From Actinosynnema sp. ALI-1.44 (GTDB lineage Bacteria; Actinomycetota; Actinomycetes; Mycobacteriales; Pseudonocardiaceae), in NCBI RefSeq assembly GCF_001984155.1, contig NZ_MTQO01000052.1, forward strand, positions 62,001 through 126,000: 64,000 bases of DNA, read 5' to 3'. This document shows, piece by piece, positions 32,969-44,774 of the stretch. The stretch's first letter is position 1. Every line of letters begins with the position of its first letter. The notes beneath the pieces were generated by a model, which was not told the origin of the DNA, searched no databases, and worked only from the letters and a program-made list of their open reading frames with translations. A program made the translations under genes and the position numbers.

Positions 32969-33510
32969 CGTTGCTCCTGCTTCTCGGACCTGACAACCAG
33001 ATCCACTCGCACACCGACCGGGAGTTCGTCGGCGAGGAAGGTCATGACCTGCTTCTTGGTCAGCAGACCGGTGTGGTCCAACTCGACGGTCACCACATGG
33101 GAAGCCTGGGGGACGTCGTCCCGCGGGCCGAAAACACCGCCGGAGTCGATCACGTCGACCCGGCTGTCGGTCAACGCCTCCAGCAGCAACTCCAACCCAC
33201 GGCTGGTCCCCCGCCACACCAGGGCCTGACCCACCGCCCTGATCAGCCTGCGCTGCGCGTCGCGGACGTTCGGGTCGTCGGAGGCCAGCATCGCCGCGTC
33301 GACGTCCACACCGATCCACGACGCCATGTAGACGAGCATGTCGGGCGAGGCCAGGTTGACGTCGAGTTCGTACTCGATGTCCGAGACCTGCTCTCGGACC
33401 GAGTCACCGATCTCCTCGAACGCGCGCACGAACCCGGCGATCACCTGGTCCCTGCGCATCGCGACCGGGAGTTGGTTCACCAGCCAGCCGGCGTGTCCGT
33501 TGGTCGTCAT
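32965..33510 (-). CDS. eCIS phage tail protein (TIGR02242-like, baseplate-associated)
   Basis: 181 aa from ATG 33510, overlapping the baseplate J stop (ATGA). The opening LPVAMRRDQVIAGFVRAFEEIGDSV and YMASWIGVDVDAAM resemble the phage tail protein domain family that follows the baseplate J gene in eCIS and related phage-tail loci. The second half carries TSRGLELLLEALTD. It probably forms part of the baseplate wedge. Confidence 0.83.
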   Translation of the reverse strand: MTTNGHAGWLVNQLPVAMRRDQVIAGFVRAFEEIGDSVREQVSDIEYELDVNLASPDMLVYMASWIGVDVDAAMLASDDPNVRDAQRRLIRAVGQALVWRGTSRGLELLLEALTDSRVDVIDSGGVFGPRDDVPQASHVVTVELDHTGLLTKKQVMTFLADELPVGVRVDLVVRSEKQEQR

Positions 33511-35471
33511 TGCCGGACCACCACCCGGTGGGACACCGACATGAACAGCTCTTCCTTCGCCAACTGGACGCGTTGGCCCGCTTCCTCCGGCTGTTGCTGG
33601 CCACGCAGGTCCGCGAGGAACATGTGGACCGTCTCGGCCCGGGACACGCCGGGCACCCCGCGCAGCACCGAGAAGATGTCCCCGATGGACAGGTCCGTGT
33701 CGAACGGCCAGCCGTTCCCGTCCGGCCCGCCGGTGATCGGGTTGACGAACGCGTACAGCGCGCGTTCGGCGTCCTCCCTGACCTTCTCCGGCCGCACGGT
33801 CGGTGCCGCGTGCACCTCGGCGACGACCGTGATCCCCTGGTACGACGGCGTGTCGATCCGGACCTGGGTGGTCAGCAGCCGCCGTCCGTCCAGGTAGCCC
33901 TTGATCTGGCCGACCAGGTCCTGTTTCAACGCCAGGTCCGGCAGCTTCATCGTCTCCGGTGCCACGTCGCTGCGCGGCACGACCAGCAGCCGCACCGGGT
34001 CGCCTGCCTTCAGCGGCGGCAGGCAACGGGCCCGCGCCACGCCCGGTGCCGCGGCCCGGGTGAGGCGCTCGAAGTCCTTGCCGGTCACCGCGCGGTGCCC
34101 GCCGCGCAGGTACAGCGGACCGCGGACCTTGGCGTTCTCCACCGATTCCGCGTCGACACCGCCCGTTGCCGGTTCGAGGTTGCGCACCGAGTCGACCGAC
34201 TGGATCGCGCTCAACGGCACGGTCAGCTTGCCCGCGCCCACGTTGCCGCGCCGCCCGCCGCCGTAGCGGTAGCCGGTCACCCAGATCTGCGCGTCCTCCT
34301 CGGGAACCGCGCCGTACTGGCGGATCCGGCCGTCGCGGCCGATCACCCTCGGCCCGAACCGGATCTCACCGGTCGCACCGTTCCACGTGTACACGCGATC
34401 GGTGTCGGAGGCGTCGGTGAAGTCGGCGACTTCCATCCACGGCACGGGATCCGGGTCCGCTCCGGGTTCACGCCGTGGGGCCACGATCTCGACGCGTTCC
34501 CGCGCACCGCGCCGGGGCAGCACGGGCGCCCGCCGCACGACGTGGACCTGGCCCGGTTCGCCGGTGCTGGAGCCGAGCAGTTCGCGGGGAGCGGGTTCGG
34601 CGTGGTGCGCGGCGACCGCGCCGCCGAGGCCGACGACGTTGACCGAGTCCAGCAGTGGCGGGGTGTCGTACGTCTGACCGGGCACGGCCGGGTCGATCAG
34701 CTTGGCACGCACCCAGTGCGCCCGCACCGGGCCGATCGCGAGGTTCTCGTGGCGTCCCTTGAGCAGCAGGGTGACCTCGCCGGACGTGTTGAACCCGTCG
34801 CTGGTGTCGGTCAGCACCCTGGCGTTCGACCAGTCCCTGCCGTTCCAGCTCTGCCAGACCCGCGGTGGGTCGCGCGGGTCGATGCCGCGCCCGGCCGCAC
34901 CGCTGACCTCGATGTCGACCCTGATCAGGTTGCCTTCGAGGCTTTCCTCGAAGCCCAGGTACATCGCGTCGTCGACGTGCAGCGACGGGAAGACCGGGAT
35001 CTGCGTGCCGTCCAGGCCGAGTTCGTCGGTCTTGTTCTCGAACCGGCCGTCGGTCCTGGTCAGCAACGCGGTCAGCTTCGGGCGGACGAGCATCAGGTCC
35101 GTGTCGGTCATGAACACGATCTGGTCCTCGCCGTGCCCGCGCTCCGTGCCGACCTGGGTGCCGCCCGGCACCCTGATCGACTGCTCCGGCGGCGCGGCCA
35201 GCGTGAACAGGATGTCGGTGCGGGCGGGTGACGCCGACGCGAGTTCGATCCCGACCAGTTCGAGGAACTTCACGTACAGCCGGTCGGGCACCTGGTTGAG
35301 CCGGTACAGGATCATCTCGGTCATCCAGGCGAACAACTCGATCAACGCGACACCGGGGTCCGACACGTTGTGGTCGGTCCACTCGGGGCAGTGTCGTGCG
35401 ATCCGTCGCTTCGCCTCGTCGACGATGTCCTGGAACCGGCGGTCGTCGAGATTTGGCGCGGGGAGACTCAT
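33507..35471 (-). CDS. eCIS baseplate J-like wedge protein (Pvc11/Cis11-like)
   Basis: 654 aa, the putative baseplate assembly protein family. The N-terminus DDRRFQDIVDEAKRRIARHCPEWTDHNVSDPG and LFAWMTEMILYRLNQVPDRLYVKFLELVGI are characteristic. The middle has beta-rich insertions including WNGRDWSNARV, and the C-terminal half has GVARARCLP and the final J-type domain. It forms the baseplate wedge that triggers sheath contraction. ATGA overlaps couple it to gp25 upstream and to the tail protein downstream. Confidence 0.92.
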   Translation of the reverse strand: MSLPAPNLDDRRFQDIVDEAKRRIARHCPEWTDHNVSDPGVALIELFAWMTEMILYRLNQVPDRLYVKFLELVGIELASASPARTDILFTLAAPPEQSIRVPGGTQVGTERGHGEDQIVFMTDTDLMLVRPKLTALLTRTDGRFENKTDELGLDGTQIPVFPSLHVDDAMYLGFEESLEGNLIRVDIEVSGAAGRGIDPRDPPRVWQSWNGRDWSNARVLTDTSDGFNTSGEVTLLLKGRHENLAIGPVRAHWVRAKLIDPAVPGQTYDTPPLLDSVNVVGLGGAVAAHHAEPAPRELLGSSTGEPGQVHVVRRAPVLPRRGARERVEIVAPRREPGADPDPVPWMEVADFTDASDTDRVYTWNGATGEIRFGPRVIGRDGRIRQYGAVPEEDAQIWVTGYRYGGGRRGNVGAGKLTVPLSAIQSVDSVRNLEPATGGVDAESVENAKVRGPLYLRGGHRAVTGKDFERLTRAAAPGVARARCLPPLKAGDPVRLLVVPRSDVAPETMKLPDLALKQDLVGQIKGYLDGRRLLTTQVRIDTPSYQGITVVAEVHAAPTVRPEKVREDAERALYAFVNPITGGPDGNGWPFDTDLSIGDIFSVLRGVPGVSRAETVHMFLADLRGQQQPEEAGQRVQLAKEELFMSVSHRVVVRQ

Positions 35472-35884
35472 GGCGCCGGTTCCTCCTGGGGGATCACGTA
35501 GAACGGGTAGACCAGGTTGCGGTGGTCGTTGGTCGCCTTGACGCGGTAGGCGATGTCGATCGAGATCATCGAACCGTCACCTTCCGGGGACGCGCTGACC
35601 TCTTCGAGTTCGACCCGCGGCTCCCACCGCGTCACCGCCTCCCGGACGCTTTGCTCGATCAGGCCGAGGGTGTTGGCGTTGACGGGCGCGAAGACCTGTT
35701 CCCACATGGCGCAGCCGAAGTCCGGGCGCATCACGCGTTCGCCGGGCGCGGTGGTCAGGATCATCCGCAGCGCGGCGTCGATCTCCTCGTCACCGTGCAC
35801 GAGACGAACGCTGCCGCCCGGGGTGATCTGGCCGGGGAACGCCCAGCCGGAACCGATCAGGTCACCGTTGCCCGGTTCGCTCAT
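35468..35884 (-). CDS. eCIS gp25-like baseplate protein (Pvc9/Cis9-like)
   Basis: 138 aa. Family features are GWAFPGQI near the N-terminus, VRLVHGDEEIDAALRMILTTAPGERVMRPDFG in the core and IDIAYRVKATNDHRNLVYPFYV at the end. gp25 (T4 and T6SS TssE relatives) joins the wedge to the hub and nucleates the sheath. It follows the spike gene by 72 nt, the only sizeable gap in the baseplate part of the operon. Confidence 0.93.
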   Translation of the reverse strand: MSEPGNGDLIGSGWAFPGQITPGGSVRLVHGDEEIDAALRMILTTAPGERVMRPDFGCAMWEQVFAPVNANTLGLIEQSVREAVTRWEPRVELEEVSASPEGDGSMISIDIAYRVKATNDHRNLVYPFYVIPQEEPAP

Positions 35885-35956: not shown

Positions 35957-37612
35957 CTAGTTCAGCTTGATCGGCTTGCCGGTCGCGGTGATCGCGGCCT
36001 TGGCCGTGATGTCGATCTTCGCCGCGTCCAGCTTCAGCGAGTTGGCTGCCTTGATCTCGACGTCCTTCGCACTGATCACCAGCTTCGTCTCACCGGTCAG
36101 TGTGGACTCGTCCTTCTCCAGCACCAGTTCGCACGCCGCGTCGCCGAGCTTGACGGTGATCCTGCTCTTCGGGTCGTCGGTCAGCACGATCCGGTGGTCC
36201 TTGCGGCTGGCCATGATCCGGTCCTTGACCTTGCCGTCCTGCGTCGGCTTCGGCTCCGGTGGCCTGTCCTTGCGGCCCCACAGCCCACCGAGGACGATCG
36301 GCCGCGACTTGTCGTCGTTCTCGAAGCCGACGAGCACCTCGTCGCCGACCTCGGGCAGCCACTCGATGCCCCGGGCCGCGCCCGCGCCGATCGTGGCGAT
36401 CCTGGCCCACTGGCTCTCGTCCTCCGACAGGGTCGGGAACTTCACCTTGACCCGGGCCTGGCTTTCCCTGTCGTCGTTGTTGGTCACCACGCCGACGACC
36501 AGGCTGCCCCAGCCGCGGTGCTCCTGCCGGTTCGCGGTGCCACCGCCGCCGATCATGTCGACGAGGCTCTCGGCTTCCTTGGCACCGCAGGTGAACCGCG
36601 TGACGTAGGGGCGGTCAGCGCCGTAGACGTGTTCGACCGCGGTCACCCGGTACTTGCCCGCCAGGCGTTTGCCGACCTTGTCCAGCGTCACGTCGTTGCC
36701 CGCGCCGATCCACGGGTTGCCGACGGCCTCGCCGCGCAGCACCACGCCACCACCGGAAGCCTTGGCCATCAACGACTGGGCGCGCGCGTCCGCCTCGGAC
36801 TGGCTCGCCGCGGGGAACTGCCCGGCTCGCCTGGTGACCTGCCCGAACGCTCGCTTGGCCGCGGCGGCCATCTGCGCGGCGGCCGGGGCGTCGGTGCCGG
36901 GGTCGGGGGTGTTGGCACGCCCGGTGATCGTCTTCTTGTCGACCGGGTCCCACGCCGTGACCACGACCTCGTCGCACGCGTCGACCGAGGCGAACCGCAC
37001 CTTGAAGCTCCGCAGGTTCTCGCCCCATGTGAGCTTCGGTGCCTGGCCGCGGCCTGACGGCTTGCGCTTGAAGTGGAACTTGTTCTCCGTGATCCAGAAG
37101 TCGTAGCCGATCGAGCCCGCGATCCGGCGCAGGAACGCGTAGTCGGTCTCGCTGTGCTGCAACAGGTGCGTCCGGACGTCCGACGTGCCGTCGATGTCCG
37201 GATCGAGGCCGTACTCGCCGGAGACGCGGCGCGCGATGTCGGCGTCGGTCATGTTGGTGAACGCGCGGGACTTGCCGCCGCGTGCCATCCGGTGGGTCAG
37301 GTCCAGTCCCGTCACGACCAACTCGTGCCGCCCGGTCACACCGGGCTCCACCGACACCCCGGTGACCTCGCCGGACGTCACGACGACCGGCTCACCCTCG
37401 GCGCGGAACGCGATCTCGACCTTGGTGCCCGGCCGGAACTTGTCCTCGTCGAACAGCTCGAAGTGCGGGTCGTCGAACCGCAGCTCGAAGGAGTCCGGCA
37501 GCTGCACGGACTCCTCGACGTGCACGAGCATCAGCCTGCCGTAGAGCTCGGTCCGCAGTGGCGAGCCGTCCACGGTCAGGATGACGCCGTCAAGGCGGCG
37601 CTGTTCAGGCAT
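35957..37612 (-). CDS. eCIS VgrG-like spike/hub protein (Pvc8/Cis8-like)
   Basis: 551 aa from ATG 37612, overlapping the LysM gene stop by 8 nt. The N-terminal 350 residues form the gp27-like hub. The OB-fold lies around WGSLVVGVVTNNDDRESQ, then WARIATIGAGAARGIEWLPEVGDEVLVGFENDD, the gp5/VgrG signature. The C-terminal part from about 455 has regular beta-helix-like repeats (ISAKDVEIKAANSLKLDAAKIDITAK) that form the needle. No enzymatic extension follows. No PAAR tip gene was found nearby. Confidence 0.93.
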   Translation of the reverse strand: MPEQRRLDGVILTVDGSPLRTELYGRLMLVHVEESVQLPDSFELRFDDPHFELFDEDKFRPGTKVEIAFRAEGEPVVVTSGEVTGVSVEPGVTGRHELVVTGLDLTHRMARGGKSRAFTNMTDADIARRVSGEYGLDPDIDGTSDVRTHLLQHSETDYAFLRRIAGSIGYDFWITENKFHFKRKPSGRGQAPKLTWGENLRSFKVRFASVDACDEVVVTAWDPVDKKTITGRANTPDPGTDAPAAAQMAAAAKRAFGQVTRRAGQFPAASQSEADARAQSLMAKASGGGVVLRGEAVGNPWIGAGNDVTLDKVGKRLAGKYRVTAVEHVYGADRPYVTRFTCGAKEAESLVDMIGGGGTANRQEHRGWGSLVVGVVTNNDDRESQARVKVKFPTLSEDESQWARIATIGAGAARGIEWLPEVGDEVLVGFENDDKSRPIVLGGLWGRKDRPPEPKPTQDGKVKDRIMASRKDHRIVLTDDPKSRITVKLGDAACELVLEKDESTLTGETKLVISAKDVEIKAANSLKLDAAKIDITAKAAITATGKPIKLN

Positions 37613-38282
37613 ACCGGCCGTCCCGTCGGCGGGTGCCCTGCTCGGGGATGGCCAGCTGCTTGCCCTTGGGCAGCGCCAACGGGTCCAGGATGCCGTTGGC
37701 CTCGGCGATCTGCCGCCAGCGCGTGGCGTCGCCGTAGTGCGCGGCCGCGACCCGGTCGAGCGTCTCGCCCGGCCGCAGCTGGTGCACGGTGTGCAGGGTC
37801 GGCGTGGACGACGTCGGGTTCTGCAGCGGCAGCTGCTCCTCGTCCTTCCACTGCTTGAGCGTGAGGTCCGCCTTGCACCGCAACGGCATGCCGGAGCTGG
37901 CGAAGTACGTGAACCGGATCTGCACGCGTTCGACGATGCACTTGAACGACTTCGTGTCGCCCCAGTGGAACTCCACCCACGGCGGACGCGCCTTGTTGCG
38001 GCTGGGGTCCGCGCCGGGCACGGCCGGGTTGACCTTCATCAGCTTGAGCAGTTTGTCGGTGTACTTGGTGACCGACTCGCCGTCGCGGGTGGTGTCGAAC
38101 GTCAACGACATCGACATCGACGCCGACTGGCCGGACTGGAACCGCAGTTCGGGGGCGTTCTTGCCCTTGGCCTCGCCGCCCTGCCAGCTGTTGGACTTGC
38201 TGATGGTCAGCTCGGCCGGGTTGAACATGCAGCCGATCTGCTCCTTGCTCTCGGTCAGCAGGTACGCCTTGACAGCCGCCAT
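37605..38282 (-). CDS. eCIS tube-end/hub adaptor with LysM domain (Pvc7-like)
   Basis: 225 aa. It starts directly at the stop of the DUF4157 gene (ATG 38280-38282 next to the stop at 38283-38285). The CIS-tube domain (1-150) opens with CMFNPAELTISKSNSW. A LysM motif (about 160-215) shows HTVHQLRPGETLDRVAAAHYGD and WRQIAEANGI. In Afp and PVC this protein bridges the tube and the spike. The LysM domain is thought to stabilise the baseplate rather than bind peptidoglycan in this setting. Confidence 0.92.
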   Translation of the reverse strand: MAAVKAYLLTESKEQIGCMFNPAELTISKSNSWQGGEAKGKNAPELRFQSGQSASMSMSLTFDTTRDGESVTKYTDKLLKLMKVNPAVPGADPSRNKARPPWVEFHWGDTKSFKCIVERVQIRFTYFASSGMPLRCKADLTLKQWKDEEQLPLQNPTSSTPTLHTVHQLRPGETLDRVAAAHYGDATRWRQIAEANGILDPLALPKGKQLAIPEQGTRRRDGRYA

Positions 38283-40388
38283 CTAGAACACCCCCGCGTA
38301 GCGCCCGCCACGGCGTTCGAGCTGGCGGAGCAGTCGTTCTTCCAGAGCCTCTGCGATCCGGTCGAGATCCACACCGGACAGTGCCTGCTGGGCACCGGGT
38401 CCGAGCGCACCCGCCGCCTGGTTCATTGCCTGGTTGGCCGCGCCGGACACGGCGTTCTGCGCGTCGCCGACCGCGCCCATGGCCTGGTTGCCGAGATCCT
38501 GCACGGCGCCACCGGCCTGGGTCATCGCGCTGTTGACCCATTGGTTCGCCTGGCCCGCGACGCCGTTCACGCCGTCGGTCGCCATGCCTTGCAACTGGCC
38601 GACCACGCCCTGCGCGGCCTGCGTCGCCTGGCTGACGGCCTGGTTAGCCTCGCTCATGGCGGACTGGGTCGCTTCACGAACCGCGTTGTCCACGACGGTC
38701 CTGGCGATCTGGGACACCGCACCGACCACGCCGTTCGCGCCGCCGCCGACCGGCAGGCTGTCCACGAGGCCTGCCGAGACCGATCCGGCCTCGTCGCCCA
38801 TCCGGTTGGCGAAGCCCGACGCGGCACTGGCGAAACGTTCGCTCATCCCACCGGCGGCACTGCTGAGTTCGCTCGCGCCGGACCCGATCGCGGACGTGGC
38901 GGTACCGGCCATCCCGCCGACCATGCCGGTCACCTGGTTGCCCAGTCCGCCGATCGCACCGGTCGCTTGGTTGGTCAGTCCGCCCACGACGCCCGACGGG
39001 CTCGGCAGCCCACCGCCGAACAGCCGCTGCACCCGCGTCGGCGCAACGGCGTCGAACTGGGATCCGACGGTCCGGGCGTGGCGCTCGTCGGAGTCCATGG
39101 ATCCCGTGTGGTGGTGCAGCATGAACCGGGGGCGTGTCACGGGCGAGCGGGCGTGGGTGAGCTCGTGGGCCAGAACGCCGAGCCCGGCCGGGTCCGTGCC
39201 GGGCTGCTGTGCCAAGTGCACGACGCGGCCTGTGGTCGCGCCCAGCGCGCCGACCTCGTGGAGAGCTCGGCGGGTCGCGTGACCGGTCGTGTAGGAGGCG
39301 CCGTCCGGGCTGCCGGTCAGCTGTGCCACGAGTGGCCGGACGCTGCTCGGGAACGGCTTCGGCGACTCCAGCGGGACGGACGCGATCGCCGCACGCCACC
39401 GCTGCTCGGGTGACGCCGGGCGCTCTGCGACCTCGGGTGCCGCCGTTGGGAGCCACACTGGGATCGACACTGGGGGAAACGATGCCGCTGGCGACTGGTA
39501 CGGGGCGGATCGCCCTGCCGTGTCCGGAGTGGTCGGTGAAAGCGACCGCCTGGCCACGAGTGGTTGGACCGCGGTGAGGCGAACAGGCGCGGACCTGGTC
39601 GCGGGCGACTGGGTCGCCTGGAACCCGGCCGCCGGTGATTCCCCGATGAACTGAGGAGCTGTCAACGGTTGGCCGGTCAGTGGCTGGGCGGCCACGCCGG
39701 GCAGTACCACCGACGACTGCTCCGCTGCTGCGCGCAGGGAGGCGGTCGCCGGTCCCACCGCCGACATGGGCCCCGGCGACTGTGTCACCTGGCCGAAAGC
39801 GGCCGCACGCTGGACCGCCGCCGTGACACCGCCGGTCGTCTTCGGGCGGATCGAGCGCACCAGCGAACGGATCGGTGCGACCACAATGGACGACGCGGCA
39901 CGCTGAACCACCGCGGCCGGGCTCGGCACAGAAAGGTGCTGTGCCGCAGAGTGCCCGGCCTCCGCACCTCGCTGATCCGCGGAAATCCCGGCGGCGCCGG
40001 GCGGTGGGGCCATCGCCAGGTGTGCGGTCGAGCCGCCGACCACCGCGTCCTTCGGCGTGGACACCAGAGTGCGGCTCAGCACAGAGGTCTTGCTGGTCAA
40101 CGGTGTGCGCCGAGCCAGCAGCGGCCGCTCGGCCGGGTTGGCCCGTGCGTGCGACTGGGTGTAGGTCGGTGCGCTCGACTCGGCGGCGGGGAAGCTGCCG
40201 GAACGGAACCCCGGCAGCAAACCGCCGACAAGCCGCTGGACCGCCATCCGCCACCACGGCGGGCGGACGGCCAGCGACTTGGCCGATACTACCGGGGCGG
40301 CCTGCGGGGCAGCCGGTTGCCTACGGCGAAACGGAACCAGCCCGCGCAGGCGGCCACCGAGGCCGCTACTTCGTCGGTTTGAAGCCAC
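38283..40388 (-). CDS. DUF4157 metallopeptidase-like protein with tape-measure-like C-terminus
   Basis: 701 aa from GTG 40388, chosen because GGAGGT lies eight bases upstream. The gene overlaps the second tube gene by 23 bp. The first 350 residues are a long Ala/Pro/Ser-rich, apparently disordered region. The DUF4157 core contains the zinc motif HELTH (408-412) in GVLAHELTHAR. The last 250 residues carry degenerate Asn-Gln/Ala/Gly helical repeats (NQATGAIGGLGNQVTG; NQAVSQATQAA) and end in a basic helix. DUF4157 proteins are known eCIS-associated toxins or accessory proteins. No other tape measure is visible, so the repeat tail may fill that role. Confidence 0.8.
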   Translation of the reverse strand: MASNRRSSGLGGRLRGLVPFRRRQPAAPQAAPVVSAKSLAVRPPWWRMAVQRLVGGLLPGFRSGSFPAAESSAPTYTQSHARANPAERPLLARRTPLTSKTSVLSRTLVSTPKDAVVGGSTAHLAMAPPPGAAGISADQRGAEAGHSAAQHLSVPSPAAVVQRAASSIVVAPIRSLVRSIRPKTTGGVTAAVQRAAAFGQVTQSPGPMSAVGPATASLRAAAEQSSVVLPGVAAQPLTGQPLTAPQFIGESPAAGFQATQSPATRSAPVRLTAVQPLVARRSLSPTTPDTAGRSAPYQSPAASFPPVSIPVWLPTAAPEVAERPASPEQRWRAAIASVPLESPKPFPSSVRPLVAQLTGSPDGASYTTGHATRRALHEVGALGATTGRVVHLAQQPGTDPAGLGVLAHELTHARSPVTRPRFMLHHHTGSMDSDERHARTVGSQFDAVAPTRVQRLFGGGLPSPSGVVGGLTNQATGAIGGLGNQVTGMVGGMAGTATSAIGSGASELSSAAGGMSERFASAASGFANRMGDEAGSVSAGLVDSLPVGGGANGVVGAVSQIARTVVDNAVREATQSAMSEANQAVSQATQAAQGVVGQLQGMATDGVNGVAGQANQWVNSAMTQAGGAVQDLGNQAMGAVGDAQNAVSGAANQAMNQAAGALGPGAQQALSGVDLDRIAEALEERLLRQLERRGGRYAGVF

Positions 40389-40830
40389 AGTGGCACACCT
40401 CCAGTTCCTCGGTGGCCAGGTCCTTCGACGTCGCGGCCAGCTTGGGACCGCTCCACTTGACCGGGAAGGCACCGGTGAAGTCCCAGCTGCGCACCACCTT
40501 GCCGGTCGAGTCCTTCAGCTCGACCGACCCGTGCCTGCGCTCGATCTTGTTGCCCGATGACTCGAGACCCTCCCCCGAGCACGTCGCGAACCAGTCGAAG
40601 AGCTCGTTCGACTCGGTGATCCCGCGCTTGAGCACGAGGTTGGGCCACTTCATCTGCTTGGGCAGCTTGTGCGTGAACTGGTTCTGCCCGCCTTCGACGA
40701 GTTCCTCGACGTCGATCTGCACCGACAGACCGGAGACCTCGAGGAACGTGCCGATCGTCAGTCCGTCCACTTTGAACACGAACTGGCCTGCGAACGGCGG
40801 GTCAGCCTTGCGCACCGGGTTATTCGCCAT
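40366..40830 (-). CDS. eCIS inner tube protein 2 (gp19/Pvc5-like)
   Basis: 154 aa from ATG 40830 (MANNPVRKADPP), which overlaps the end of the small DUF6760-like ORF. Tube-family features are FVFKVDGLTIGTFLEVSGLSVQIDVEELVEGGQN, then WPNLVLKRGITES and the central WFAT. The end has the metal-like CHCG motif, possibly structural. It probably forms the first ring or rings of the tube next to the baseplate, as Pvc5 does, or a second tube isoform. Confidence 0.9.
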   Translation of the reverse strand: MANNPVRKADPPFAGQFVFKVDGLTIGTFLEVSGLSVQIDVEELVEGGQNQFTHKLPKQMKWPNLVLKRGITESNELFDWFATCSGEGLESSGNKIERRHGSVELKDSTGKVVRSWDFTGAFPVKWSGPKLAATSKDLATEELEVCHCGFKPTK

Positions 40831-40999
40831 TGCCGCCACCGATCCCCTGCCAGAAACGTTCGTTCAATGTGCTGACTTCCTCCAGCAACGTGACCCGGTC
40901 GCCGTGTTCGAGGTCCAGCAGCTGGTCCAACCCCCAGTGCAAGTGGTAGGCCAGGTACGTGATCTCGCGCCACAGCGTCGCGGCGGCGTATCTCGTCAG
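40820..40999 (-). CDS. Small DUF6760-like eCIS protein lacking a normal start codon
   Basis: About 59 aa if read from CTG 40999. The conserved part WREITYLAYHLHWGLDQLLDLEHGDR and LNERFW resembles the small DUF6760 family found beside tube genes in actinobacterial eCIS loci. The frame is open from 41062 to the TAA at 40822-40820 but has no ATG, GTG or TTG before the conserved part; the first TTG would remove the first twenty conserved residues. The frame is -1 relative to the upstream gene, so it may be made only as a frameshift extension. It overlaps the second tube gene. Confidence 0.7.
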   Translation of the reverse strand: MTRYAAATLWREITYLAYHLHWGLDQLLDLEHGDRVTLLEEVSTLNERFWQGIGGGNGE

Positions 41000-41352
41000 C
41001 CCACGGCTGCCGCCTCCTCCGGGAAAGGGCTGCCCGGCTCCATCGACTCCAGGATCGACGGGTCACCGAAGTTGATGACCCGGTAGAAGTCCTGCAGATA
41101 GCGGTAGTCGCTGGCGAACAGCCGCTCGATGGTGCGGGTGGTGACCCGGCCGGACGTGCCGAGCTCAGTCACCACCCTGGCCAGCACGATCACGGTCGCG
41201 TACGCCTCGTTGTCCTTCACGCGGTTGTCGCGCAACGGCTCGATCTCGTCGCGAGCCGTCGCGAGCCGCATCACGCCCTCGCGGTGGATCACGCCTTCGT
41301 CGTCGACGAACCCCTTGGGCAGCGTGAACGGGTACTCGGTGTTCAAACTCAT
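40996..41352 (-). CDS. Phage tail assembly chaperone-like protein (gpE/TAC type)
   Basis: 118 aa. It starts inside the tube gene stop (ATGA, 41349-41352). It opens with YPFTLPKGFVDDEGVIHREGVMRLATARDE, as in the phage tail assembly chaperone E/41/14 families, and continues with a helical segment ending YLQDFYRVINFGDP. In P2- and lambda-like phages the gene at this place makes a second, longer product by -1 frameshifting into the next ORF. The same arrangement is visible here (heptamer at 41023-41029). Confidence 0.8.
   Translation of the reverse strand: MSLNTEYPFTLPKGFVDDEGVIHREGVMRLATARDEIEPLRDNRVKDNEAYATVIVLARVVTELGTSGRVTTRTIERLFASDYRYLQDFYRVINFGDPSILESMEPGSPFPEEAAAVG
41023..41029 (-). promoter_or_regulatory. 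Candidate programmed -1 frameshift slippery heptamer
   Basis: On the minus strand, in the frame of the 118-aa gene, the sequence is C CCT TTC, which fits X XXY YYZ. Slipping re-pairs Pro and Phe tRNAs on CCC and TTT. Eight bases later begins a GC stem, GGCGGC (41014-41009) with GCCGCC (40987-40982), enclosing a smaller AGCC-GTG-GGCT hairpin (41008-40998). After the slip the new frame reads P-G-G-G-G-S-R-G-L and enters the DUF6760-like ORF. Confidence 0.6.
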
Positions 41353-41780
41353 ACCCGCTCAAGACCTTCGTGCGTGATGGTGACCTTCTCGGTGCTCACC
41401 GCGTTGGCGTCGGCCGAGAGCTCCGAGCCCTCCCACTTGGAGATCCACGCGTTGCTGAAGTTCCACCTGGCGACCTCCTCCATCTTGGAGTTCTTCGCCA
41501 CGATGGAGCCGTTGCGGCGCGCCTTGGTGATGTCGCCCTCGATGATCTCCTTGCGCCACTCCCAGAGACCTGTGTCGTTGTCGACGCGGCGCTCGAGGGT
41601 GATGTCCGACCACTTCAGCGCGCCGATGGTCTTGATGATCATCATGCGGCCGTCTTTGTTGAGTTCCTTGTGCTCGATGACCTCGGACTCGTTGACGACG
41701 CCGCTGCACTTCATGAACGTGCCGAGCTCGATGCCGTCGGCCTCGATCACGAAGATGTTGGTGGCTGTCACGTCTGACAT
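41349..41780 (-). CDS. eCIS inner tube protein 1 (gp19/Hcp-like, Cis1-like)
   Basis: 143 aa. It starts 32 bp after the sheath stop. Features of the family are NIFVIEADGIELGTFMKCSGVVNESEVIEHKE, ALKWSDITLERRV and FSNAWISKWEGSELSADANAV, with alternating beta strands throughout. It polymerises into the hollow needle inside the sheath. The high Asn, Lys and Ile content compared with neighbours reflects strong structural conservation of this gene. Confidence 0.95.
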   Translation of the reverse strand: MSDVTATNIFVIEADGIELGTFMKCSGVVNESEVIEHKELNKDGRMMIIKTIGALKWSDITLERRVDNDTGLWEWRKEIIEGDITKARRNGSIVAKNSKMEEVARWNFSNAWISKWEGSELSADANAVSTEKVTITHEGLERV

Positions 41781-41812: not shown

Positions 41813-43405
41813 TCAGTCCGAGGTCTCCGCGCCGCCCTGCCACTGGCTGAGGCGGAAGATCACGAACTCGGCCGGCTTGACCGGCGCGAGCCCGACGTCG
41901 ACGATCAGCTTTCCTTCGTCCACAGAGGACGCGGGGTTGTTGGACTCGTCGCACAGCACGTAGAAGGCCTGGTCCGGCGTGTTGCCGACGAGGGCACCCT
42001 GCATCCAGAGGTTGCGCAGGAAGGCGTTGATGGTCCGCTTGACCCGTGCCCACAGGTCGGCGTCGTTCGGCTCGAACACCACCCACTGGGTGCCCTGGCG
42101 GATGGTCTCCTCGATGAAGTTGAACAACCGCCGCACGTTGATGTAACGCCAGCTCTGGTCGGTCGCGGCCAGCGTGCGCGCGCCCCAGATGCGGATGCCG
42201 TTGGCGCCGAACGACCGGATGCAGTTGACCTGCTGCGGGTTGAGCAGGTCCTGCTCGCCGGTGGTCACGTCGGCCTCGAGCCGGGCGATGCCGCGCACGA
42301 CCTCGTTGGCCGGTGCCTTCCACACACCGCGGCCCGCGTCGGTGCGCGCCCAGACACCGGCGACGTGGCCGGACGGCGGGACGGTCAGGAACTTCTCGCC
42401 GTTGGTGGCGCCGGGGCGCGCCAACGGGTTCTGCACGACCAGGTGCGGGTAGTACGCGGCGCCGAAGGCACTGTCCTTGCCCAGCGCGGTGCGCCACTCG
42501 AGCGCCTGCTGGGCGTTGAGGCCGGGCGGGGAGTCCAGGATGGCCATCTTGGTGTGGCTGCGCTCGCACCAGTCGACCAGCTTCGCCTGCGCGGCGAGGT
42601 ATCCCTCCGTGTCGAAGGTCCCGTCCTCGCGGGTGGCGACGGTGATCAGGTCGGGGATCGCCACCATCGTGACGTCCTCGGCGATCGCGAGCCCCTCGTA
42701 GCCGGTGCGGGAGACCTCGGAGCCCTCGAACTCGGTCGGCGAGACGGACTTGGTCACGGGCGCGGTCGCCTGGATGGCGTACCGGCCGGGAGCGGGCGCG
42801 CGCTCGGCCACCGACAGGCCCTGTGCGCTCTTGACCTCGACGCGGATCAGCTTGGAGCGCTCGTTGATCGTCTTCTCGGCGCTCTTCGGGCCACGGCCGA
42901 GGTGGACGCCGCCGAACTCCTCGCGGACCTGGCCGTTGTCGACGACCTTGAGCGTGAACTCCTGGCTGGCCTGCTCCCCCTCGGCGGGCGGGGCGGGCTC
43001 GATGACGACGTCGTAGGTGGCGGCCGGGTCGAGCGCCTCCACGTTCAGCGTCTCGATCTCCTGGCGGCCGGACGCGGGCAGCGCGCGCTGCGCCTTGCCC
43101 CGGCCGTTGCTGCTCGGGATCCGGACGATGTAGGCGATGCCGCCACCGTTCTCGAAGAACCCCTTCACCGAGTGCGGCAGCAGGATGCCCGGCGCGAAAC
43201 CGCCGTAGACACGCTCGTACTGCGGCCAGCTGGTGACCAGCTGCGGCTTCACGCCGTCGGGGTCGGTCGGGTCGCCCGCGTCGGCGTTGTAGGTCGCGGT
43301 GAAACCCACGAACGCCGCGACGGCCGTGCCCACACCTTGCAGCGGCATCGAACCGCTGGGTCGCTCCTCGATGTAGACGCCTGGGGCGCCGTAAGTCGCC
43401 GCCAT
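41813..43405 (-). CDS. eCIS contractile sheath protein (Cis2/Pvc2-like)
   Basis: 530 aa from ATG 43405 (MAATYGAPGVYIEERPSGS), with AAGGAG seven bases upstream; a longer in-frame reading through the promoter region is rejected. The N-terminus is the standard sheath handshake strand. The C-terminal third carries GIRIWGARTLAATDQSWRYINVRRLFNFIEETIRQGTQWVVFEPND, the most conserved sheath region, and the final strands FVIFRLSQW. It is the first gene of the right-arm operon. Only one sheath gene is present, as in Streptomyces CIS, whereas PVC has three. Confidence 0.96.
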   Translation of the reverse strand: MAATYGAPGVYIEERPSGSMPLQGVGTAVAAFVGFTATYNADAGDPTDPDGVKPQLVTSWPQYERVYGGFAPGILLPHSVKGFFENGGGIAYIVRIPSSNGRGKAQRALPASGRQEIETLNVEALDPAATYDVVIEPAPPAEGEQASQEFTLKVVDNGQVREEFGGVHLGRGPKSAEKTINERSKLIRVEVKSAQGLSVAERAPAPGRYAIQATAPVTKSVSPTEFEGSEVSRTGYEGLAIAEDVTMVAIPDLITVATREDGTFDTEGYLAAQAKLVDWCERSHTKMAILDSPPGLNAQQALEWRTALGKDSAFGAAYYPHLVVQNPLARPGATNGEKFLTVPPSGHVAGVWARTDAGRGVWKAPANEVVRGIARLEADVTTGEQDLLNPQQVNCIRSFGANGIRIWGARTLAATDQSWRYINVRRLFNFIEETIRQGTQWVVFEPNDADLWARVKRTINAFLRNLWMQGALVGNTPDQAFYVLCDESNNPASSVDEGKLIVDVGLAPVKPAEFVIFRLSQWQGGAETSD

Positions 43406-43817
43406 GAAGTGCTCCTTCTGCCTCGGCTTGGCTCGGCCTACAGGTTCTCTCGCACGCACGTGGTCATCACCGCCCTTTCGGGCGGCTATCGGTGCGGACC
43501 TGCCGGTTGCTGGGGCGACCGGCTCGGTGGACCCGAGTCGCATGCACGCGGACGCATCCGTTCACCAGGGGTATCGACTGGGGTTATGCCCCTCTGTTCT
43601 CATCAGGGCGCGCTTTCGTCCTGCACAGTTGACGAGATCGCCTGACGCGACCCGTCGGGGCGATCAGTGGGCACAGTCGGAAACAGGGCAGCCAACGACA
43701 ACCGGATGGTCGGGGCATCACTCTCGCTGGGCAGGCGAGGCACACCGGGTACCCGCGCACGTCCGGCATTTCCCGCAGAGCCGCGGCACGACCGGTGACA
43801 CGGGGGAACAGGAAAGC
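43406..43817. promoter_or_regulatory. Divergent intergenic region between sheath operon and LysR gene
   Basis: 412 bp without a credible gene. It must hold the promoter of the tail operon (minus) and that of the LysR gene (plus). Visible structure is the CCGCCC hairpin at 43470-43485, a GGGG/CCCC set (43568-43571, 43580-43583, 43589-43592) in which either GGGG arm could pair with CCCC, and several GCATGCA-like words near 43540. No clear -35/-10 pair could be assigned. Confidence 0.5.
43470..43485 (-). promoter_or_regulatory. GNRA-tetraloop hairpin in the sheath 5' leader
   Basis: Read as RNA on the minus strand this is CCGCCC-GAAA-GGGCGG, a six-pair GC stem closed by a GAAA tetraloop, 65-80 nt before the sheath start. 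No U tract follows, so it is more likely a transcript-stabilising or protein-binding element than a terminator. Confidence 0.5.
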
Positions 43818-44774
43818 GTGGACATCACACACCACCATCTGCGGGTGATCATCGCCGTCGCGGAGGCGGGCAGCATCGGCAGGGCAGCGGTTCGGTTGCG
43901 CACCTCCCAGGCCGCGTTGTCGGCGAAACTGCGCCGGATCGAACAGTCGCTGGGCGGCGACCTGTTCGTGCGCAGCCGTTCCGGGTGCGTGCCGACACCG
44001 TTCGGCGACTCGGTGCTGACCGGGGCGCGGCAGACGGTCCGCGCGGAGCCGGGACCGGCGCCGAGACCGGAACCCCGCGAACCGATGCGGGTCCGGATCG
44101 GCGGGTACGCCGGGGTCATGATGGGTGAGCTCGGCAGACGGCTGGTCAGCGAGCCGTGGGTGTCCGGCGTGCGGCTGAGCGACAACCCGGACTCCAGGAT
44201 CAACATCCGGATGATCGTGAACGGCGACCTGGACGTGGCGCTGGTCTACGACTGGCCGCCGGTGGCGCTGCCGACCCCGGCGTCGATCCGCGAACGCGTC
44301 ATCCACGTGGCCGAACCGGTCTTCGTGATGATGTCGCAGAGCCACCCGCTCGCCGTCGCGCCGGTCCTGTCGCTGCGGGCGCTGGCGGACTACCCGTGGG
44401 TGGACGAGCCCGCCGGTATGACGACGTGGCCGACGTACCTGCGGCACGTGTGCAACCACGCCGGTGTCACCCTCCACAACAGACTGGCCGCGGCCAACTT
44501 GCTGGAGGCCCGGCGCCTGCTCACCACGTCAGCCGCCGTGGCACCCGTTGTCGCCACCACGGAGTCCACGCCCGGTCTGGCGATCCGCGCACTGGAAGGA
44601 CATCCGCTGCGGCAACGGCTGCGGCTGGTCTACCGGCAGGGCACCCCGATCGGCGCGAGGATCACCAGAATCGTGCAGCACATCGGCAAGGCGTACGCCG
44701 AGCACCAGGGCTGCAACGCCGCGTTCCGCGCGTGGTGGCACGCGGAGGGATGTCACGCCATGCCCGTCCGGTGA
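43818..44774 (+). CDS. LysR-family transcriptional regulator
   Basis: 318 aa from GTG 43818 (VDITHHHLRVIIAVAEAGS). The N-terminal winged helix (1-60) has SIGRAAVRLRTSQAALSAKLRRIEQSLGGDLFVRS. The substrate-binding domain follows, with QSHPLAVAP and a C-terminal RLVYRQGTPIGARI. An upstream in-frame extension would cover the whole intergenic region and is rejected. It is divergent from the eCIS sheath operon, so it is a candidate regulator of that operon or simply a boundary gene. Its stop is five bases from the convergent DUF305 stop. Confidence 0.88.
   Translation: MDITHHHLRVIIAVAEAGSIGRAAVRLRTSQAALSAKLRRIEQSLGGDLFVRSRSGCVPTPFGDSVLTGARQTVRAEPGPAPRPEPREPMRVRIGGYAGVMMGELGRRLVSEPWVSGVRLSDNPDSRINIRMIVNGDLDVALVYDWPPVALPTPASIRERVIHVAEPVFVMMSQSHPLAVAPVLSLRALADYPWVDEPAGMTTWPTYLRHVCNHAGVTLHNRLAAANLLEARRLLTTSAAVAPVVATTESTPGLAIRALEGHPLRQRLRLVYRQGTPIGARITRIVQHIGKAYAEHQGCNAAFRAWWHAEGCHAMPVR

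Follow-up and report, generated by a model that had tools for sequence, protein, structure and literature searches.

A candidate programmed -1 frameshift between a tail-chaperone-like gene and a DUF6760 frame in an actinobacterial injection system

The tail chaperones gpE and gpE+E' of phage P2 form a short and long pair, and the P2 slippery heptamer is T TTT TTG. In lambda a -1 frameshift near the end of the chaperone gene likewise gives a short form, gpG, which attaches to the tape measure, and a long form, gpGT, whose tail binds the tube protein (PMC5009743, in the part of the text available). Here we describe a locus of Actinosynnema sp. ALI-1.44 that appears to be built in the same way, with a predicted -1 shift near the end of a chaperone-like gene and a predicted short and long product; it differs from lambda in belonging to a contractile injection system, a molecular syringe derived from a phage tail, in its heptamer, C CCT TTC, and perhaps in its tail domain, whose family weakly resembles P2 GpE. 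The likeness to P2 gpE/gpE+E' and to Mu gp41/FS-gp41 lies in profiles, some members of the chaperone family weakly matching Phage_TAC_7 or Mu gp41 and some DUF6760 members weakly matching Phage_P2_GpE, whereas many of the eCIS members carry a C-terminal CPxC segment and their site is mostly C CCT TTC or a G run. Tail assembly frameshifts of actinophages use GGGGGAA (PMC10274946 and PMC5506516, available in part), a heptamer that also occurs in the G-run eCIS pairs discussed below, but those frameshifts are found in phages and the locus described here has C CCT TTC.

Among the injection systems themselves, the Streptomyces CIS operon SCO4253-SCO4251 has a sheath gene and two following genes, as here, and the product of SCO4251 was detected in cells and in at least one particle purification; no frameshift is mentioned in the available portions of these papers (PMC10020575, PMC10066040, PMC2000904). 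Gene order suggests that SCO4251 is the chaperone discussed here. In the system of S. davawensis a DUF4157 effector is related to tape measure proteins, according to the accessible part of PMC11126660, and in our locus a frame with the eCIS_core domain (DUF4157) stands two genes downstream of the chaperone. In the literature searched, with subscription papers and preprints mostly outside it, we found no description of a chaperone frameshift in eCIS or tailocins and no mention of DUF6760. The device is known from phages; its presence, its spread and the change of its heptamer in injection systems look new.

The locus and its junction

The window, by which we mean the whole stretch of 64,000 nt that was analysed, carries on its minus strand the genes expected of an eCIS; a search of chosen reading frames found sheath, tube, gp25, J baseplate and spike genes as well as an eCIS_core domain. 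In the direction of transcription the order is sheath, tube, the 118-aa gene, the -1 frame with DUF6760, a second tube gene, the eCIS_core frame and the baseplate genes:

41813..43543, minus strand: contractile sheath (PF04984 and PF17482)
41349..41780, minus strand: tube protein 1 (Phage_T4_gp19; PF06841, E 7e-31), precedes the chaperone
40996..41352, minus strand: tail-assembly-chaperone-like gene, 118 aa, zero-frame product (PHROG 508, E 4.6e-6)
41038..41041, minus strand: GGAG, 8 nt before the heptamer, which may act as an internal Shine-Dalgarno stimulator
41023..41029, minus strand: slippery heptamer C CCT TTC in X XXY YYZ register, CCCTTT[C/G] kept in the 24 most similar loci
40997..40999, minus strand: CTG overlapping the chaperone stop, candidate non-AUG start, CTA or TTA in relatives
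40820..41062, minus strand: open stretch of the -1 frame with the DUF6760 domain (PF20546, 34.1 bits), predicted to be read after the slip
40366..40830, minus strand: tube protein 2 (Phage_T4_gp19; PF06841, E 2e-35)
38283..40472, minus strand: reading frame with eCIS_core (DUF4157; PF13699, E 3e-6), outer limits only
37605..38282, minus strand: CIS_tube/LysM protein (PF19266, E 3e-29)
35957..37612, minus strand: spike/hub (Phage_base_V, PF04717, and Phage_GPD, PF05954)
35468..35884, minus strand: gp25-like baseplate wedge (PF04965)
33507..35471, minus strand: Baseplate J-like protein (PF04865)

The chaperone gene thus sits between two gp19-like tube genes and ahead of the eCIS_core frame, whose protein is a candidate tape-measure-like client of the chaperone; an Apolipoprotein match of that frame is weak and sub-threshold (E 0.014), a hint of a helical end. 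The ATG of tube protein 2 at 40830 falls within the end of the DUF6760 frame. A plus-strand frame at 43404-44774, divergent from the sheath gene, looks, judged by eye from its translation, as if it contained a LysR-type regulator.

The chaperone gene runs from ATG 41352 to its stop TGA at 40998-40996, and the -1 frame, with an upstream stop at 41065-41063, is open from 41062 and ends at TAA 40822-40820. Re-derived in this way, the coordinates agree with the sequence-only reading, which had placed the DUF6760-like frame in the -1 frame of the 118-aa gene with a shared open stretch of 65 nt (41062-40998) and had pointed to C CCT TTC at 41029-41023, in slip register within that overlap. The zero frame at the site is AGC CCT TTC and the -1 frame is CCC TTT CCC GGA GGA GGC GGC AGC CGT GGG CTG ACG. 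What had been called DUF6760-like is a real DUF6760 match, its PF20546 score lying above the cut-off of 27 bits, and ahead of its conserved part the frame indeed has no ATG, GTG or TTG; the CTG at 40999 does occur there. Two features by which a programmed frameshift is judged are found at this junction, namely an X XXY YYZ heptamer in the register of the zero frame inside the overlap, and a downstream frame that lacks a start of its own and is conserved as coding, the remaining doubt being the window's CTG.

For the homology of both parts we used two alignments (A2 and A3), built from 54 and 55 of the 61 loci chosen. PHROG 508, 'tail assembly chaperone', matches all 54 chosen homologues (E up to 0.01) besides the window's protein. 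With E up to 0.1, Phage_TAC_7 matches 6 of the 54 chaperones (best E 0.0042), the Mu gp41 family 7 (best E 0.012) and PF12322 T4_baseplate 4 (best E 0.0054), and Phage_P2_GpE (PF06528) matches 15 of the 55 DUF6760 members, weakly (best E 1.5e-4); at the same limit PF06528 does not match the window's own DUF6760. The AlphaFold model of the chaperone (pLDDT 87) finds the HK97 tail assembly chaperone as its best PDB match, a weak one (E 0.08, TM about 0.4), and three viral models match it below E 0.001: a T4-like baseplate hub assembly protein, a baseplate protein and one that is uncharacterised. The likeness to T4-like baseplate hub assembly proteins consists of these top viral fold matches and of the PF12322 matches above; Mu FS-gp41 comes 13th among the viral folds (probability 0.99, E 0.055). 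With the DUF6760 model, the PDB search found two matches, the best at E 5.7. Family membership of the chaperone is clear from its sequence and the fold evidence is mixed. Homology is supported for the chaperone to phage tail assembly chaperones and, weakly, for DUF6760 to the P2 GpE family.

Stimulators of the slip are another matter. A GC stem had been proposed between GGCGGC (41014-41009) and GCCGCC (40987-40982), and it can be drawn, but neither folding nor consensus speaks for it: single-sequence folds of the stretch are no better than those of shuffles (z -0.94, -0.33 and +0.46), and the consensus fold of 18 relatives lacks the stem and has little covariation. The two Rfam matches at the locus are both far under their gathering scores. 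The GGAG upstream of the heptamer is also present in most of the 23 relatives listed, which says little because the conserved E-P-G residues also demand GGAG. We know of no measured slip rate for CCCTTTC. The heptamer was not found in the available parts of the frameshift papers PMC10274946 and PMC5009743.

Close relatives, missing starts and selection

We ranked 161 distinct loci by similarity to residues 1-96 of the window's chaperone, so that the heptamer was left out of the ranking. CCCTTT stands in register at every rank from 1 to 24, window included, and at none from 25 to 45; as eight of the 24 loci come from the window's own genus, they are not independent. In these 24 loci the codon preceding CCT always ends in C, yet it encodes seven amino acids (S, A, T, V, D, F and L), being AGC in 12, GCC in five, ACC in three and GTC, GAC, TTC or CTC in one each. 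The codon after CCT is TTC in 21 and TTG in three, the heptamer persisting where F is replaced by L. At the heptamer site Pro is encoded by CCT in 18 of 18 loci (core set), against 2 of 117 at the other Pro codons of the same genes, and in seven genes of the window CCT makes up 5 of 201 Pro codons. The bare string CCCTTTC is not rare in the window (two found, 4.4 expected), and what goes beyond chance is the place of CCCTTT, not the mere occurrence of the string.

Within the family, the 13 nearest loci, the window itself among them (72-100 % identity), all have CCCTTTC, and in 12 of them DUF6760 follows in the -1 frame. L045 (G007 contig 5) keeps CCCTTTC, but the 0.5 kb downstream, to the contig end, yielded no DUF6760, and the -1 frame of L045 is interrupted shortly past the heptamer. 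The C CCT TTC class as used below (23 members with a DUF6760 frame) takes in L076 and leaves out L045. The alignment of related loci that the sequence-only reading had proposed as a check finds both heptamer and -1 frame persisting in the window's group.

In 19 of the 23 C CCT TTC loci there is no ATG, GTG or TTG within reach of DUF6760; L076 and L101-L103 keep the heptamer and have a possible DUF6760 start. Conceivably DUF6760 could then be a separate small protein begun at CTG 40999 by termination-reinitiation at the CTGA overlap: CTG overlaps the stop in nine of the 19 start-less loci, the window included, GGAGGAGG lies upstream of the CTG in the window, and GTGA or ATGA occupies the same place in many other pairs. 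In a scan for near-cognate starts over the stretch between heptamer and conserved core, however, four of the 19 have only ATT or ATC, and six (L044, L046, L047, L094, L095 and L099) have no CTG, ATT, ATC or ATA and still keep both heptamer and frame. Members from Amycolatopsis, the Actinoplanes-like members and Streptomyces NRRL S-118 have CTA or TTA instead, which leads us to reject a CTG start for the group as a whole. Such a start would also leave the conservation of C CCT unexplained, and we consider it quite improbable in the window.

Both missing starts and a low dN/dS in the -1 frame are, moreover, what a frameshift predicts and what a CTG start fails to predict. Nine pairwise comparisons put the dN/dS of the -1 frame, from the L-T-R-Y segment onward, at 0.16-0.35; in the same comparisons the linker between heptamer and core has no clear constraint in that frame. 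These ratios indicate that the DUF6760 frame is under purifying selection.

We therefore regard it as very probable that a single chaperone gene is read in two ways by a slip on C CCT TTC, giving the two products in a ratio that would serve tube assembly. Most ribosomes would stop at TGA 40998 and release the short chaperone, while a fraction would slip back one base on the heptamer, with re-pairing of the Pro tRNA on CCC and of the Phe tRNA on TTT, and would go on to produce a 177-aa fusion of chaperone and DUF6760. If lambda gpG/gpGT and P2 gpE/gpE+E' are a guide, the short form might coat a tape-measure-like client and the long form, through its DUF6760 tail, might bring tube subunits to it, in which case the slip rate would set the ratio of short to long form needed in tube assembly. 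That the slip occurs, its rate and the function of both forms we infer. The earlier proposal, that an injection system has retained the tail-chaperone frameshift of phages, is supported at the level of sequence by the reading frame, by a heptamer kept despite changing amino acids, by start-less relatives, by purifying selection on the -1 frame and by homology.

Chaperone-DUF6760 pairs in other genomes

PF20546 was matched in 143 of 390 genomes of the window's family, and the 118-aa protein likewise in 143; in the phylum sample the chaperone alignment was matched in 24 of 396 genomes. A named set, made up of the 80 best of at least 574 loci, reaches into Chloroflexota, Cyanobacteriota, Bacillota, Myxococcota, Pseudomonadota, Acidobacteriota and archaea; of the unnamed loci no more than the 30 best from each search were taken, and the counts that follow are no census. 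From 170 loci, 165 had a DUF6760 match, 156 were left after removal of identical ones and 148 after removal of those with gaps of 60 nt or more.

In 146 of these 148 distinct adjacent pairs DUF6760 lies in the -1 frame, the exceptions being L085 (in frame) and L122 (+1). A four-base stop/start overlap also yields the -1 register, so that the frame alone is no proof, and it is the missing starts that carry the argument. Sorted by site, C CCT TTC or TTG accounts for 23 of the 148 pairs (19 without a start) and G runs for 106 (27 without), for the most part G GGG GAA, one or two codons short of the stop. Another seven pairs, five of them start-less, have some other X XXY YYZ heptamer (T TTT TTG, T TTT TTA, G GGA AAC, G GGA AAA or A AAT TTT). 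The P2 heptamer, T TTT TTG, occurs in L133 (Paenibacillus) and L159 (Ammoniphilus). No site was assigned to 12 pairs, 11 of which have a start; the other, L135, is start-less and has G GGG GGG further upstream.

In all, 52 of the 148 pairs are start-less, and 50 of the 52 have an in-register heptamer within the open overlap. The other two registers hold heptamers in 16 and 9 of the 52, and 1000 codon shuffles gave on average 13.4 and at most 25 of 52 pairs with one in register. The two exceptions, L048 and L078, have merely a run of four G (G GGG AGA or G GGG CGA). One might suppose that the -1 register is a by-product of four-base overlaps inherited from an ATGA-type ancestor, such overlaps always giving it, and that DUF6760 goes unexpressed in the start-less lineages; the 11 pairs of the 148 with a start and no heptamer would suit this. 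The dN/dS of the start-less frame and the surplus of heptamers in the slip register over the other two oppose it, and we think it most improbable. We think just as little of a slip in transcription, in place of ribosomal frameshifting, as what joins the frames: some relatives do have six or seven G or T in a run, but CCCTTTC is not a homopolymer and the zero-frame register of the heptamers points to tRNA re-pairing.

A later set, of plasmid and IMG/VR loci that were not used in building the models, gave the same pattern. All 18 distinct pairs are in the -1 frame and all, whether start-less (12 of 12) or start-bearing (6 of 6), have a heptamer in register, against 5 and 2 of 18 in the other registers. 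The most divergent of these loci, L186-L189 (32-39 % identity), have T TTT TTC or A AAT TTT. The pattern of start-less pairs carrying some slippery heptamer is seen across phyla and counts in favour of a frameshift. The IMG/VR contigs yielded 15 loci, among them L186-L189 with their divergent chaperone and DUF6760, which would link phages to injection systems if their contigs come from genuine phages; tblastn of the L111 chaperone against phage records gave no match at E 0.01.

Homologues with a start for the small gene and no slippery site had been named in advance as what would refute a frameshift. They exist, as 11 of the 148 pairs, nine of them in one clade, and they limit the generality of the frameshift; the window's own group is untouched by them.

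Start and heptamer occur together in much of the G-run class, in which 79 pairs have some start. Most of the actinobacterial pairs fetched read G GGG GAA and then TCG TGA, whose GTG could start DUF6760. GAG makes a better Shine-Dalgarno than GAA, yet in the 77 start-bearing five-G pairs the second codon is GAA in 70 and never GAG, with GAA at 134 of 745 among Glu codons upstream for comparison; the choice of GAA over the better Shine-Dalgarno favours the heptamer. In the available text of PMC10274946, GGGGGAA recurs as the five-two motif of about a thousand annotated actinophage frameshifts. In start-bearing G-run pairs, slip and separate start are both possible routes. We note that G-run chaperones (e.g., L111, L120 and L153) end in a CPxC zinc-ribbon-like segment that is missing from the window's type.

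Change of the site and its possible meaning

On a quick tree, which has few columns and in which many forks are weak, 16 of the C CCT TTC loci group together (support 93) with L100 next to them, and the nine start-bearing pairs without a heptamer form one clade (support 97), which falls beside the C CCT TTC loci L076 and L101 at a weak fork. G-run pairs without a start require at least five changes on this tree. The window's own genome has a second injection-system locus (L040, contig 40, chaperone match at 1501-1788) with G GGG GAA and a GTG overlapping the stop; as this is of the G-run type, one genome holds two kinds of site.

Much more tentatively, and with some doubt, we speculate that in bacterial and archaeal injection systems of this sort the frameshift-made pair of chaperone and chaperone-DUF6760 is ancestral, widespread and largely unannotated; the slippery site would have been exchanged several times, and the ratio of the two forms would control how the tube wraps a tape-measure-like cargo protein, the slip rate of the ribosome thereby setting effector loading and tube length. 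Length setting and cargo loading of these syringes matter because delivery devices are built from them. If the frameshift is real, gene lists of these systems miss one product, the long chaperone, and DUF6760 in start-less lineages would be the tail of that chaperone and not an independent small protein. The junction would also offer a natural series, with at least five different slippery heptamers at one place and the frame unchanged.

Several further loci deserve mention. In Rhodococcus sp. WB1 (L171, 2875-3018) the RefSeq DUF6760 gene begins at an internal TTG and loses the conserved Y-P-L-G-T part; ahead of the core a scan detected no start codon, and the chaperone stop comes after a G GGG GGA. 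Gene calls with such a cut-off start may be explained by a frameshift. The haloarchaeal loci L126 and L173 share an in-register G GGA AAC close to where the chaperone ends; L173 has an ATG for DUF6760 as well. In the cyanobacterial loci L121, L128, L138, L139, L150, L161, L164 and L166, DUF6760 lies about 350-650 nt past the matched chaperone, and inspection by eye shows a second chaperone-like start between the two in L139 and L150.
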